Notes under the pieces: model-generated
Databases searched by the model: none
What the model saw: the letters and a program-made list of their open reading frames with translations, nothing else
What the model was told of the DNA's origin: nothing
Made by a program: the position numbers and the translations under genes
Part shown: positions 41,586-44,298 of the stretch, in pieces
How positions within the stretch are numbered: position 1 is the first letter of the stretch
How the letters are laid out: each line of letters starts with the position of its first letter
DNA from: Bacteroidales bacterium
GTDB taxonomy: Bacteria; Bacteroidota; Bacteroidia; Bacteroidales; F082
Length of the DNA stretch: 44,527 nt
Direction: 5' to 3'
Assembly (NCBI GenBank): GCA_017561025.1
Contig: JAFZDU010000071.1
Span: 1 to 44,527 of the forward strand

Positions 41586-41603
41586 TAGCCTCTCTGCTTT
41601 TTT
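41564..41603. terminator. Bidirectional terminator overlapping the DjlA-like gene's end
   Basis: AAAAAAGCAGAGAGG (41564-41578) and CCTCTCTGCTTTTTT (41589-41603) form a perfect 15-bp stem with a 10-base loop. The left arm encodes the last residues (KKQRG) of the plus-strand gene, and the right arm touches the porin stop codon at 41602. A/T runs serve both strands. Confidence 0.92.
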
Positions 41604-43521
41604 ATTTATATAACCTCCAATTTAATCCTAAGCAGAACCTGCTATCGCGCATAGGATAATGCGGTGTGGTGAAATACCTGTTGTCGTTGGTTAATGAATA
41701 CATATTAGTATATAACACAAAAATATTCGCTTGTCTTATCTTGAATGTAACACATAAATCAATGTATGGAAAGTTCCCGACTAAAACATTGTCTTGCAGA
41801 TAAAATGTTCTTAACGATGGCATATATGCATCAGCATAGTATTGGGTGAAATATTTTACAGCAATGCTAGGTTGCATCATAGACCTGTTTTTTACCAAGG
41901 TAATGTTGTATGCAAACTTTATCTTTCCTTGAAAACTAGGAAGATGTATTACATCATTATTATTAGTGGTCTGTAATGAAGCAAAACCAATCATTTCAAA
42001 TTTGTTTAGTTTGAAATTAAAGTTGGAATATAAAGAGCTGATGCTTAATGTGCCTGAATATTGTTTGGGCTTAGCATCTGTACCAAAATAAATGTAATTA
42101 CTGATGGTGGTTTGTTTTACACCAACACTTAAGTATGGTAGTTCATATGACGCATCTAATAGGAGAGAGGTTGCAGCATCGAAGGCGTTATTCCATCTAA
42201 AATTGTTTGAATAATAATATTCCTCAAACCAATCAGCTGATTGTCGGTTTAGATTAATATCGAATTTCAATGCTCCCCAATTTTTATTAGAAGTGCCTAA
42301 AAATTGTTTCCATTGTCCTTCTATGTAAAAATCTCCGGCATGATATCCATTTGTTATTATTTGAGCGTTGCCAGTAATTCTAGTTGATTTAAACAAATTG
42401 ATTGTTATTCCAGCTTGAGCTCTTAGATTAGAATAATTGTGATTTTCGAAGCGTTCATGCGTTCTAAAATCCATATATCCAGCATGATATGTGTAATTAT
42501 GTTCTATGCCTAATGTTAAATAAAATGGAATATCGTTATTGTATTCTTTATATCCTAAGGTGTTCCAATATATTGCGTTTTTTATAGTATGGAAATATAT
42601 ACTATCAAAAGTCTTTAATGAATCAATTACAGGATCAAAATTTTGATAGAAAGTTGATAGAGGTTTTCCATCTTCATATACATATCTGTTGTTTTGGTAT
42701 CCAAAATGATGATTTATTCTACCAATGTCAATTTTGTTTTTATTGTTTGTCGAATCTATAGTTTTATTGGTCTCCGTTCTAAGAATATTAAAATATTGGT
42801 CAATGGCAAAACCAGACGTTTTTATTAAATTAGTAGCATTCGTTAGATTGACATCAATAACTGATCTGTCTGTTTCTTTGTTATCTATAAATGTGTAATC
42901 GTTAACGATGCCACCATTTTCCTGTATACTTATCTTATTGTGGAAATACGTACCCGTAATTCCATAGCGCTGTTTTCTAGTTTTATATCTTAAATTTCCA
43001 TTAAAGAAAGAGTTTTGAATTTTACTTCTTTTATAAACACCAGGTGAAAAATCTACATCATAATTCAGTGTGACAAAGAAACGTGGTAAGAATTCTCTAC
43101 AAAATAAAACTTCCAAATGTTGTTCTTTTTTGTCTCCACTCATATATTTGATTTCTGTGAAAGGCTGATATACTATTGGATAAATTGTATTATCAGCATC
43201 TTTTAAATATGAAGAGAATGATTGTAATTCTGAATTAAAACCTAGAACAATAGGATAGGAGAAATATATTTTTTTGTGGGCTAAACCTGAATTGCTTAAT
43301 GTTTGATATATTACATACGGATCCTCTAATGGTTCATAATCAGAGGCGAGTAGGGTAGTGGTATCATATAAATATATATCCCCTAATGTATGATTGTTAA
43401 AGTTGTTGTAAAAGTATTTTACTAGAGTAGAATCAATCTGTATTGACCCAATTTGTTTTGATGCCATTGTAAAATGACAAATTAGAAGCAAAGATAATAA
43501 TATTAATTTTAAACTTTTCAT
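41602..43521 (-). CDS. Putative outer-membrane porin (Porin_10 type)
   Basis: 639 aa from ATG 43521, which gives the signal peptide MKSLKLILLSLLLICHFTMA; the longer frame to 43662 runs over promoter and terminator sequence and is rejected. The mature protein is a long series of amphipathic aromatic strands (for example GNLRYKTRKQRYGITGTYFH, FDINLNRQSADWFEEYYYSN) ending in CLGLNWRLYK, typical of beta-barrels. It resembles the Bacteroidota Porin_10 family; substrate unknown. A -7 element lies directly before the ATG, and the small RNA gene lies just upstream on the same strand. Confidence 0.88.
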   Translation of the reverse strand: MKSLKLILLSLLLICHFTMASKQIGSIQIDSTLVKYFYNNFNNHTLGDIYLYDTTTLLASDYEPLEDPYVIYQTLSNSGLAHKKIYFSYPIVLGFNSELQSFSSYLKDADNTIYPIVYQPFTEIKYMSGDKKEQHLEVLFCREFLPRFFVTLNYDVDFSPGVYKRSKIQNSFFNGNLRYKTRKQRYGITGTYFHNKISIQENGGIVNDYTFIDNKETDRSVIDVNLTNATNLIKTSGFAIDQYFNILRTETNKTIDSTNNKNKIDIGRINHHFGYQNNRYVYEDGKPLSTFYQNFDPVIDSLKTFDSIYFHTIKNAIYWNTLGYKEYNNDIPFYLTLGIEHNYTYHAGYMDFRTHERFENHNYSNLRAQAGITINLFKSTRITGNAQIITNGYHAGDFYIEGQWKQFLGTSNKNWGALKFDINLNRQSADWFEEYYYSNNFRWNNAFDAATSLLLDASYELPYLSVGVKQTTISNYIYFGTDAKPKQYSGTLSISSLYSNFNFKLNKFEMIGFASLQTTNNNDVIHLPSFQGKIKFAYNITLVKNRSMMQPSIAVKYFTQYYADAYMPSLRTFYLQDNVLVGNFPYIDLCVTFKIRQANIFVLYTNMYSLTNDNRYFTTPHYPMRDSRFCLGLNWRLYK

Positions 43522-43525
43522 TCTA

Positions 43526-43533
43526 CAAAAGTA
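43526..43533 (-). promoter_or_regulatory. Putative -7 element of the porin gene
   Basis: TACTTTTG on the minus strand ends 4 bases before the porin ATG, so transcription would start at about the first codon (leaderless mRNA). No TTTG at the -33 distance. Confidence 0.45.
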
Positions 43534-43565
43534 ATTAAAATCATTAAATACTATTTTTGTATTAA

Positions 43566-43777
43566 TAAAAAAAACTCTCCGAAGAGAGTTAAAAGTGTGG
43601 AGAATGAATATTTGAGCGAAGGTGTGGTAATACCTTAAACAAATAAACACCATTACCCCCACACTGTTCCATCATATATACCGTACGGCAGTCATTATGA
43701 CTTGTATAGTTAATCCCTGTTTAGTTTTGAAAATACCACTTTTCGCTCAAGGACTTAATATATTGCCTCAATAATTC
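43566..43777 (-). ncRNA. Structured small RNA, possibly 6S-like
   Basis: About 210 nt between a full promoter (43782-43812) and a terminator (about 43570-43591), with no credible ORF. It folds as a rod. Closing stem: 43750-43742 (TTGAGCGAA) with 43612-43620 (9 bp). Then GTGGTA 43739-43734 with 43624-43629 (6 bp), an AAAC/TAAAC helix (43727-43719) with 43637-43648 around a 3-base bulge, ATTA/TAAT, then a strongly asymmetric inner loop (about 21 bases, 43656-43676, G-rich), TATAC/GTATA and an apical AGTCA-TGACT hairpin. A long rod with an open central loop recalls 6S RNA, which traps RNA polymerase, but I cannot match sequence and give the name only as a guess. It lies between the 5S gene and the porin. 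Confidence 0.75.
43570..43591 (-). terminator. Terminator of the small RNA
   Basis: On the minus strand AACTCTC-TTCG-GAGAGTT, a 7-bp stem with a UUCG tetraloop, followed by seven T: a textbook Rho-independent terminator ending about 45 bases before the porin ATG. Confidence 0.93.
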
Positions 43778-43781
43778 ACTG

Positions 43782-43812
43782 CAAAGATAATATCTTTTTT
43801 TTAAATAACAAA
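43782..43812 (-). promoter_or_regulatory. Promoter of the small RNA
   Basis: On the minus strand: -33 TTTG (43812-43809), 19 bases, -7 TATCTTTG (43789-43782). Both elements match consensus exactly. A/T-rich tracts upstream (to about 43900) could act as an UP element. Confidence 0.85.
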
Positions 43813-44121
43813 TAAAAAAATATTTTTTTATAAAATTGTAATTTATATTTAAAATATTGATATTCAAAATGTTTTTTTTTATAAAATTGACAATAATCAA
43901 CATTTTAATTTAGAATATATATATGTTGATAAAAATTAGGGAATAAGTTGAAATAAAATCTAAATATTCCTGCTTAGATATTAATAAGTTGTAAGGGATA
44001 TTTAATGTAAAAATAGGGAAGAAGCTTAAATTAAAATAACCATGAGTCAGAAAACTTTTTATTGAAAAATTGGTGGGATTTTGCGGAAAGATTATTCCGT
44101 GAAGGCCTCTTGTATAATTCC
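43813..44121. other. AT-rich gene-free stretch
   Basis: About 310 bases of very AT-rich DNA with long T and A tracts (43813-43900) and no credible ORF. Near 44083-44098 a small CGGAA/TTCCG hairpin precedes repeat copy C. I see no tRNA or protein gene. Confidence 0.6.
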
Positions 44122-44216
44122 GGGCGTTCCGTCTCCGCCGTCGGGCTTTCCGCTGTATCTTTGCTTGCCTCCGCTGTCGCTTCGCTCGCAAAGGATGCCG
44201 CTGCAATCCCTAACGC
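44122..44216 (+). repeat. GC-rich interspersed repeat, copy C
   Basis: 95 bp from GGGCGTTCCGTCTCCGCC to GCAATCCCTAACGC. It aligns with copy B almost without gaps, differing at roughly 13 scattered positions, and with the reverse complement of copy A. It is located downstream of the rRNA operon end. Confidence 0.88.
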
Positions 44217-44298
44217 AAAGTGTCGGACTTGAACCTATAATGTCTTTAAATATCCAGCATCCGACTGACTTGATGACGCCGATGGCTTCATATATACT

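Follow-up and report, generated by a model that had tools for sequence, protein, structure and literature searches.

The locus and its RNA

The window, that is, the whole stretch of 44,527 nucleotides of Bacteroidales DNA analysed here, carries a probable gene for a small RNA between an apparent 5S rRNA gene, inside which the window ends, and a co-directional porin gene whose ATG (43521) lies about 45 nucleotides 3' of the RNA (Table 1). The 5S gene was read from the sequence and was not listed there by Rfam; at the orthologous locus of genome G027 the 5S was confirmed by Rfam. An initial annotation of this DNA had proposed a structured RNA that looked undescribed and was transcribed from a promoter of its own. 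This proposal is supported; no Rfam 15 family matched the window RNA above threshold, and none was credible up to E 10. The claimed promoter, TTTG followed after 19 nucleotides by TATCTTTG, is present and of the Bacteroidota type, and its -7 box is aligned in the orthologues of G027 and G009. With five occurrences of the pattern TTTGN18-21TANNTTTG in the window, where 1.5 would be expected, the promoter alone is weak evidence. An ORF scan bore out that the RNA holds no credible ORF of at least 30 amino acids; the porin frame runs on without a stop as far as a GTG at 43662 inside the RNA, an extension judged not credible. The UUCG-capped terminator with its T-run was also recovered (one terminator-like site found, 0.1 expected); it is a second terminator in this RNA and is present in G009 and absent from G027.

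Two borderline matches to the Rfam Flavo-1 RNA (cut-off 42 bits) were seen, one in the window between the small RNA and the 5S gene (44135-44221, minus strand, 42.2 bits) and the other at locus L057 (391-481, minus strand, 43.3 bits). In addition, 27 bases around the palindrome AAGTCATAATGACT (window 43690-43716) recur at 93% and 89% in other contigs of the same genome (G000:C48:37161-37187 and G000:C99:50353-50379, respectively), in both cases in reading-frame-like DNA; this resemblance, apparently fortuitous or due to coding sequence, was not used.

Table 1. Features of the window RNA and of the adjoining porin gene
Feature	Position	Strand	Basis
Promoter, TTTG, 19 nt, TATCTTTG	43782..43812	(-)	sequence
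Window RNA, about 210 nt	43566..43777	(-)	start inferred from promoter, end from terminator
P0 5' strand (closes domain I), UUAAGUCC, partner 43710-43718	43751..43758	(-)	MFE fold
X1, UUGAGCGAA, partner X1' 43612-43620	43742..43750	(-)	compensatory changes among homologues
Hairpin hL, loop L GUGGUA	43729..43744	(-)	MFE fold; complementarity to L'
X2, CUAAACA, partner X2' 43634-43641	43718..43724	(-)	X2:X2' supported across the family
P0 3' strand, AGGGAUUAA	43710..43718	(-)	MFE fold
P1 5' strand, AGUGUGGGG, the G-rich loop of the initial annotation	43657..43665	(-)	P1 covaries in 22 homologues
P2 5' strand of domain II	43642..43656	(-)	read between P1 5' strand and X2'; P2 covaries
X2', UGUUUAAG	43634..43641	(-)	pairing with X2
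Hairpin hL', AAGGU-AUUACCAC-ACCUU, with loop L' the complement of L	43619..43636	(-)	MFE fold
X1', UUCGCUCAA	43612..43620	(-)	pairing with X1
P2 3' strand of domain II	43603..43611	(-)	read between X1' and P1 3' strand
P1 3' strand, CUCCACACU, then only UUU	43594..43602	(-)	MFE fold; R3 match
Second intrinsic terminator, UUCG cap and U-run	43566..43590	(-)	terminator search
Porin gene, PF14121 Porin_10 (E 2.9e-86), co-directional	41602..43521	(-)	Pfam

The claimed long-range stem of nine base pairs is a perfect helix between the segments called X1 (TTGAGCGAA) and X1' (TTCGCTCAA). A helix equally long at that span arose in 14 of 200 dinucleotide shuffles, so the helix by itself is unremarkable; the minimum free energy (MFE) z-score of the RNA is -2.25. 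The complete pairing of the two domains of the RNA, domain I with domain II, reaches -29.4 kcal/mol (the unit of all energies below), a value matched by none of 500 dinucleotide shuffles. What was described earlier as an asymmetric G-rich inner loop corresponds to the 5' side of P1 (GUGUGGGG/CUCCACAC), a terminator-like stem which competes with the nine-pair stem. The two states of the window RNA lie within about 3 kcal/mol (-41.0 versus -37.9).

Orthologues and a second RNA type

BLAST orthologues of the window RNA were obtained from G027 (full length) and from G009 (3' half, without domain I), and the window type was detected in 3 of 99 genomes. Both orthologues also lie between 5S-like DNA and the gene for a similar outer-membrane protein, so that at all three loci the RNA stands co-directionally upstream of a similar protein gene (Pfam was run on that of the window only).

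A second RNA type, family A, possesses domain I only and is found in 5 of the 99 genomes of the genus, namely G000, which is the window's own genome (contig C114), G435, G444, G447 and, more distantly, G027. It shares with the window RNA the 5' stretch CCTTGAGCGAAAAGTGGTATTTT (diverged in G027), set in another fold, and has its own terminator. At its loci (L005 1440-1600, L019, L020, L021 and L031) family A appears as a compact multibranch RNA with the closing stem AAAACACCCC/GGGGUUUU and a terminator hairpin of its own, and the one copy scanned is upstream of a gene without a Pfam match.

The family A model also matched loci of G427 and G444 whose stem letters are altered and still pair, the stem UUGAGCGAA/UUCGCUCAA being replaced by AAGAACGA/UCGUUCUU or UGUACGGA/UCCGUACA, and from these compensated stems a larger two-domain family was recognised. 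Compensatory changes in the claimed stem, on which the initial annotation had staked its fold, are thus found among homologues. One of these loci, L032 (G427:C2), holds two tandem two-domain RNAs, each with its own complementary pair, upstream of a gene which by eye is SusC/TonB-receptor-like.

Architecture and covariation of the family

The small RNA most likely encoded here belongs to a large family of folded RNAs that appears to be undescribed, and it is a divergent and atypical member of that family. Domain I consists of a stem, P0, presenting X1, a hairpin with the loop L (often 6-7 nucleotides) and X2. Domain II forms a terminator-like stem from P1 and P2, with a U-run behind it, and the loop of this stem presents X2', a hairpin with the loop L' and X1'. 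The pairs X1:X1', L:L' and X2:X2' are complementary within each RNA and differ between paralogues. In the proposed structure X1, X2 and both hairpins would form a four-way junction, with a loop-loop contact between opposite arms.

L complements L' in nearly all inspected loci, the exceptions being G009, which is without domain I, and L214, where no clear match was seen. In a first set of 27 partly redundant loci the own partner ranked first in 19; the energy rank of the own partner among the 27 was second for G027, fifth for the window and eighth for G009. Three-segment pairing was seen by inspection in all of 24 further loci (two of them identical) and in 13 additional loci, one of which is weak (L214 of G445, -19.2). 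For 14 of the 20 matches in G445, which had been found via domain II, the own partner was the best in 13 (-31.0 versus -16.3).

A control set of 100 non-redundant loci was chosen solely by the letters of L and L': among 120 pattern matches, 3 were dropped because they lay too near an end, and the remaining 117 were reduced to 100 after removal of redundancy and of loci missing the U-run or flank. In this set X1:X1' has a mean of -10.7 against -3.6 with swapped partners and is in the best 5% in 89 loci, and X2:X2' has a mean of -15.1 against -9.0 and is in the best 5% in 61. An X1 helix of at least 7 base pairs is formed in 86 loci (swapped mean 7.2) and an X2 helix of at least 8 base pairs in 78 (swapped mean 43.4), so that the specificity of X2 is below that of X1. 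Position by position, in either of two registers seven of the nine X1 positions beat the full 500 shuffles, and no position did so in the other two that were tried; the best position pairs in 80 of the 100 loci (shuffled maximum 58), with all four Watson-Crick types seen. As for domain II, in an alignment of 22 homologues 87.8% of the cells are paired and double-change cells number 65 against 22.3 after shuffling, figures biased in favour by the fitting of the alignment to the structure.

On the 5' side of the RNA, TAnnTTTG was found at 50 of the 94 loci considered, against an expected 8.9. An apparently unpaired ACATA stretch was observed 20-90 nucleotides upstream of hL in 63 of 94 loci (16.1 expected). 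No conserved leader peptide was seen by eye.

Genes downstream of the element

The downstream ORF is co-directional in 91 of 99 loci, its start codon is at most 150 nucleotides away in 77 of these 91, and the median distance from the U-run over the 91 is 50 nucleotides. Between the U-run and the start codon, TAnnTTTG was found in 1 of 69 loci, which is not above the 2.1 expected by chance. Since the box is common 5' of the RNA and none above chance precedes the gene, the downstream gene usually seems, as far as sequence motifs tell, to rely on the promoter of the RNA. This placement would be left unexplained if the two domains were a scaffold that binds proteins or multimerises, through intramolecular or intermolecular kissing, with termination serving only for 3'-end formation; the fully complementary loops of about 6-7 nucleotides, the recurring hairpin stems and the conserved ACATA stretch 5' of domain I would suit such a scaffold, which nevertheless appears unlikely. 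A classical antisense RNA aimed at the porin was likewise not favoured, since what is conserved is the pairing of the RNA with itself and the placement is of the leader type.

Of the 91 co-directional genes, 68 were searched with Pfam, PADLOC and NCBIfam, and no single function emerged. Por_Secre_tail is the commonest Pfam family (4 of 68), and the commonest enzymes are DNA methylases and restriction enzymes (N6_Mtase 3, N6_N4_Mtase 2 and PvuRts1I/SRA 2 among the 68). For upstream ORFs (66 of 75), no methyltransferase model was among the 25 PADLOC families listed out of 106 matched, a list that includes other nuclease-like and candidate-defence models; the apparent enrichment of methylases downstream is therefore not a measured statistic. 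In addition, small HTH-like proteins account for 14 of the 91 genes downstream of the element.

Distribution

The model of domain II, R3, was built from 22 sequences of one genus including the window copy, which scores 68 bits against it, and may miss distant members; the E-values of such purpose-built models are approximate, and many of the genomes searched are incomplete metagenome-assembled genomes. In the window's genus, R3 has matches in 92 of 99 genomes (E at most 0.01), with up to 20 per genome; as numbers of copies these counts are slightly too high, because a single place is in some cases listed on both strands. At E 3e-4 it matches 75 of 295 genomes of the order and 6 of 296 genomes of the phylum, the own genome included, four of the other five being from one genus. 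By a stringent letter pattern, at least 117 stretches were found in a public genome collection; the 80 titles listed are mostly Bacteroidales or unspecified Bacteroidia, with six from Fibrobacter or Fibrobacterales and one record each from Flavobacterium, Tenacibaculum, Mucilaginibacter, Arcicella and a metagenome-assembled genome labelled Clostridia. Three viral contigs and four plasmid records (Bacteroides, Parabacteroides or Phocaeicola) matched, and no phage record was matched by similarity. Cultured strains also carry copies, for instance B. xylanisolvens XB1A (L144).

Three of the four plasmid records, plasmid- or ICE-like ones of Bacteroides and Parabacteroides, were examined (L209, L210 and L211). 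In each of them the copy stands ahead of a topoisomerase gene and of a gene for a deaminase or a member of the dihydrofolate reductase family, and in two of the three RteC genes are near the copy. Together with the several matches near contig ends, which belong to fragmented assemblies, and the tandem copies in G427, these copies would fit an inverted repeat of a mobile element acting at the DNA level and having no function as RNA. This is very improbable, however, as the arms vary by compensatory change between copies, and the element has a promoter at one end, a U-run at the other and a fixed orientation to the next gene.

A possible transcription attenuator

From the alternative pairings, the leader position and the promoter counts, transcription attenuation by a bistable RNA is inferred: with a probability of roughly 60%, the two-domain RNAs, which are mostly 5' leaders in Bacteroidales, are bistable transcription attenuators, and the window RNA is one member. 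Domain I would capture domain II by X1:X1', L:L' and X2:X2', the two hairpins becoming opposite arms of a four-way junction, so that P1 could not close and the polymerase would read into the gene. If domain I stayed a separate hairpin, closing of P1/P2 would terminate transcription and set free an RNA of about 200 nucleotides. Some factor would set the balance between the two states, and the RNAs, the two halves of which pair with each other, may in this way work as an on/off transcription switch for the adjoining gene.

In the models, the 5' strand of P1 has two possible partners and is shared between them, the 3' strand of P1 (terminator, mean -18.1) and the spacer (antiterminator, mean -16.4). 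The spacer pairing is better than after shuffling in 98 of 99 loci (-16.4 versus -8.2), and its advantage over the partners of other members is moderate (-16.4 versus -11.9; best 5% in 36 of 99). Folded alone, domain II gives the terminator in 95 of 100 loci, and in transcripts cut before the 3' strand of P1 the L:L' contact is formed, or the rod favoured, in all 100. For the full-length RNAs the rod outdoes the two-domain state in 95 of 100 loci, by a mean of 10.8 kcal/mol; as it is far more stable in most members, many of them would simply be on at equilibrium. A pairing of the 3' strand of P1 with a segment 3' of the U-run was tried as a universal element and rejected, being in the best 5% in only 12 of 100 loci; it is better than a reversed control in 52 of 100, and in a subset of 20 loci it is suggestive (-11.8 versus -9.8 swapped and -7.2 shuffled).

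The window copy departs from this scheme and seems to have drifted toward a free RNA. Its predicted antiterminator is weak (-6.7), its first terminator is followed by UUU only and then by the second terminator, and TACTTTTG sits 4 nucleotides 5' of the porin ATG, with TATTTTTG at the equivalent place in G027 and G009, so that the porin may have its own promoter beside the start codon. Cis control of the porin is therefore doubtful, and, given also the closeness of the two states in energy, the window RNA may now act as a free RNA.

Such a free RNA could have a partner in the same genome, the domain-I-only RNA of G000:C114, which could pair in trans with domain II of the window RNA. The two would form a trans kissing pair, with domain II as either the capturing or the captured partner, in the manner of a sponge or a trans-antiterminator. 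The 5' stretch of family A, CCTTGAGCGAAAAGTGGTATTTT, pairs with window domain II almost as strongly as domain I of the window RNA itself does (-28.2 versus -29.4; 0 of 500 dinucleotide shuffles), which makes the trans pair a serious rival or an addition; moreover, G027 has both RNA types (pairing -25.8), and domain I from two other copies in the window's genome is a poorer partner for this domain II (-21.0 and -14.2). On the other hand, the best of 300 cruder shuffles by 2-mer blocks reached -30.2, the general signal of the family is self-pairing in cis, family A and the window type were found in 5 and 3 of 99 genomes, respectively, and G009 keeps domain II while family A was not detected there. 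G435 is without the anti-motif, and G444 and G447 have only candidate matches with two mismatches, at about the control frequency, the genomes being 79-84% complete. As an explanation in its own right the trans pair is thus doubtful.

A bolder version of the attenuator reading is tentative, with the odds somewhat against it: the elements would be a new class of largely orthogonal, self-contained switches of Bacteroidota and Fibrobacterota, each encoding both partners of a three-segment lock, by kissing or a four-way junction, that chooses between terminator and antiterminator. In some genomes one partner would have been released to act in trans (family A and the window RNA), and natural cis/trans RNA circuits would thus govern secreted proteins and small HTH regulators as well as restriction-modification genes. 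As the element is in most genomes of one genus and a quarter of the sampled order and has no Rfam hit, it would be among the commoner cis-regulatory RNAs there. If it attenuates, it would control at once a large number of genes for secreted proteins, for small HTH regulators and for DNA modification, and the specificity of the pairs within a genome would make a natural toolbox of independent RNA switches.

Comparison with known RNAs

Rfam at the gathering threshold gave no match to the element in 20 member loci. Up to E 5, the sole match in L042 was IS605-orfB-II (16 bits, E 3.8, cut-off 88), and up to E 0.5 one sub-threshold overlap, tsr24 in L222 (27 bits, cut-off 50), was found in 12 further loci. 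The Rfam family DUF805b was observed beside two copies, below its cut-off about 40 nucleotides 3' of the element in L216 (569-604, minus strand) and above it about 800 nucleotides beyond the element in L054 (654-688, minus strand).

The initial annotation had suggested a 6S-type RNA binding RNA polymerase and had recommended a covariance search. The element shares the length class of 6S RNA (RF00013) and 6S-Flavo (RF01685), about 210 nucleotides, an independent promoter and terminator are present, and a long rod is among its possible folds. However, neither model matched in the window, up to E 10 in 43450-43900 or in the own genome, negatives that are weak, since RF00013 matched 5 of 14 control genomes and was above the cut-off in none of 60 Bacteroidales, and RF01685 matched nowhere, controls included. 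Furthermore, the RNA has two mutually complementary domains, with a terminator-like stem at the end of the fold, and its homologues stand as leaders before unrelated genes and are multi-copy, whereas 6S is expected in one or two copies. The 6S suggestion is therefore extremely improbable.

Riboswitches and leader attenuators are 5' leaders with an alternative terminator and antiterminator sharing one strand. The element has in common with them the 5' leader position and a predicted terminator and antiterminator with a common strand, but it is without a recognised conserved ligand pocket, its paired segments vary, the genes downstream are unrelated and it matches no Rfam family over threshold in the loci scanned. 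In the antisense attenuators of the pT181 type, terminator formation is controlled by loop-loop pairing of complementary hairpins, and sets of orthogonal pairs exist. A terminator controlled by loop-loop pairing, predicted here, and orthogonal pairs are thus shared, whereas here both partners are on one RNA, three segments pair, and the element is chromosomal and multi-copy.

No description of the element was recognised among the papers listed by full-text searches of the literature. The sRNA paralogues FopS and GibS of Bacteroides, of which FopS has a canonical Bacteroidota promoter, are likewise multi-copy Bacteroidales RNAs, but FopS is about 65-70 nucleotides long and represses susC mRNAs by a conserved seed (R1'), while the window RNA is about 210 nucleotides long and has a self-complementary second domain, of which the available excerpts describe none for FopS (PMC11697453). 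Finally, 15 candidate structured RNAs have been reported in front of HTH_XRE genes; they are set apart by their description, the available part of which mentions no two-domain switch (PMC8040213). As small HTH-like genes also lie downstream of the present element, some of these candidates could be fragments of the element family.
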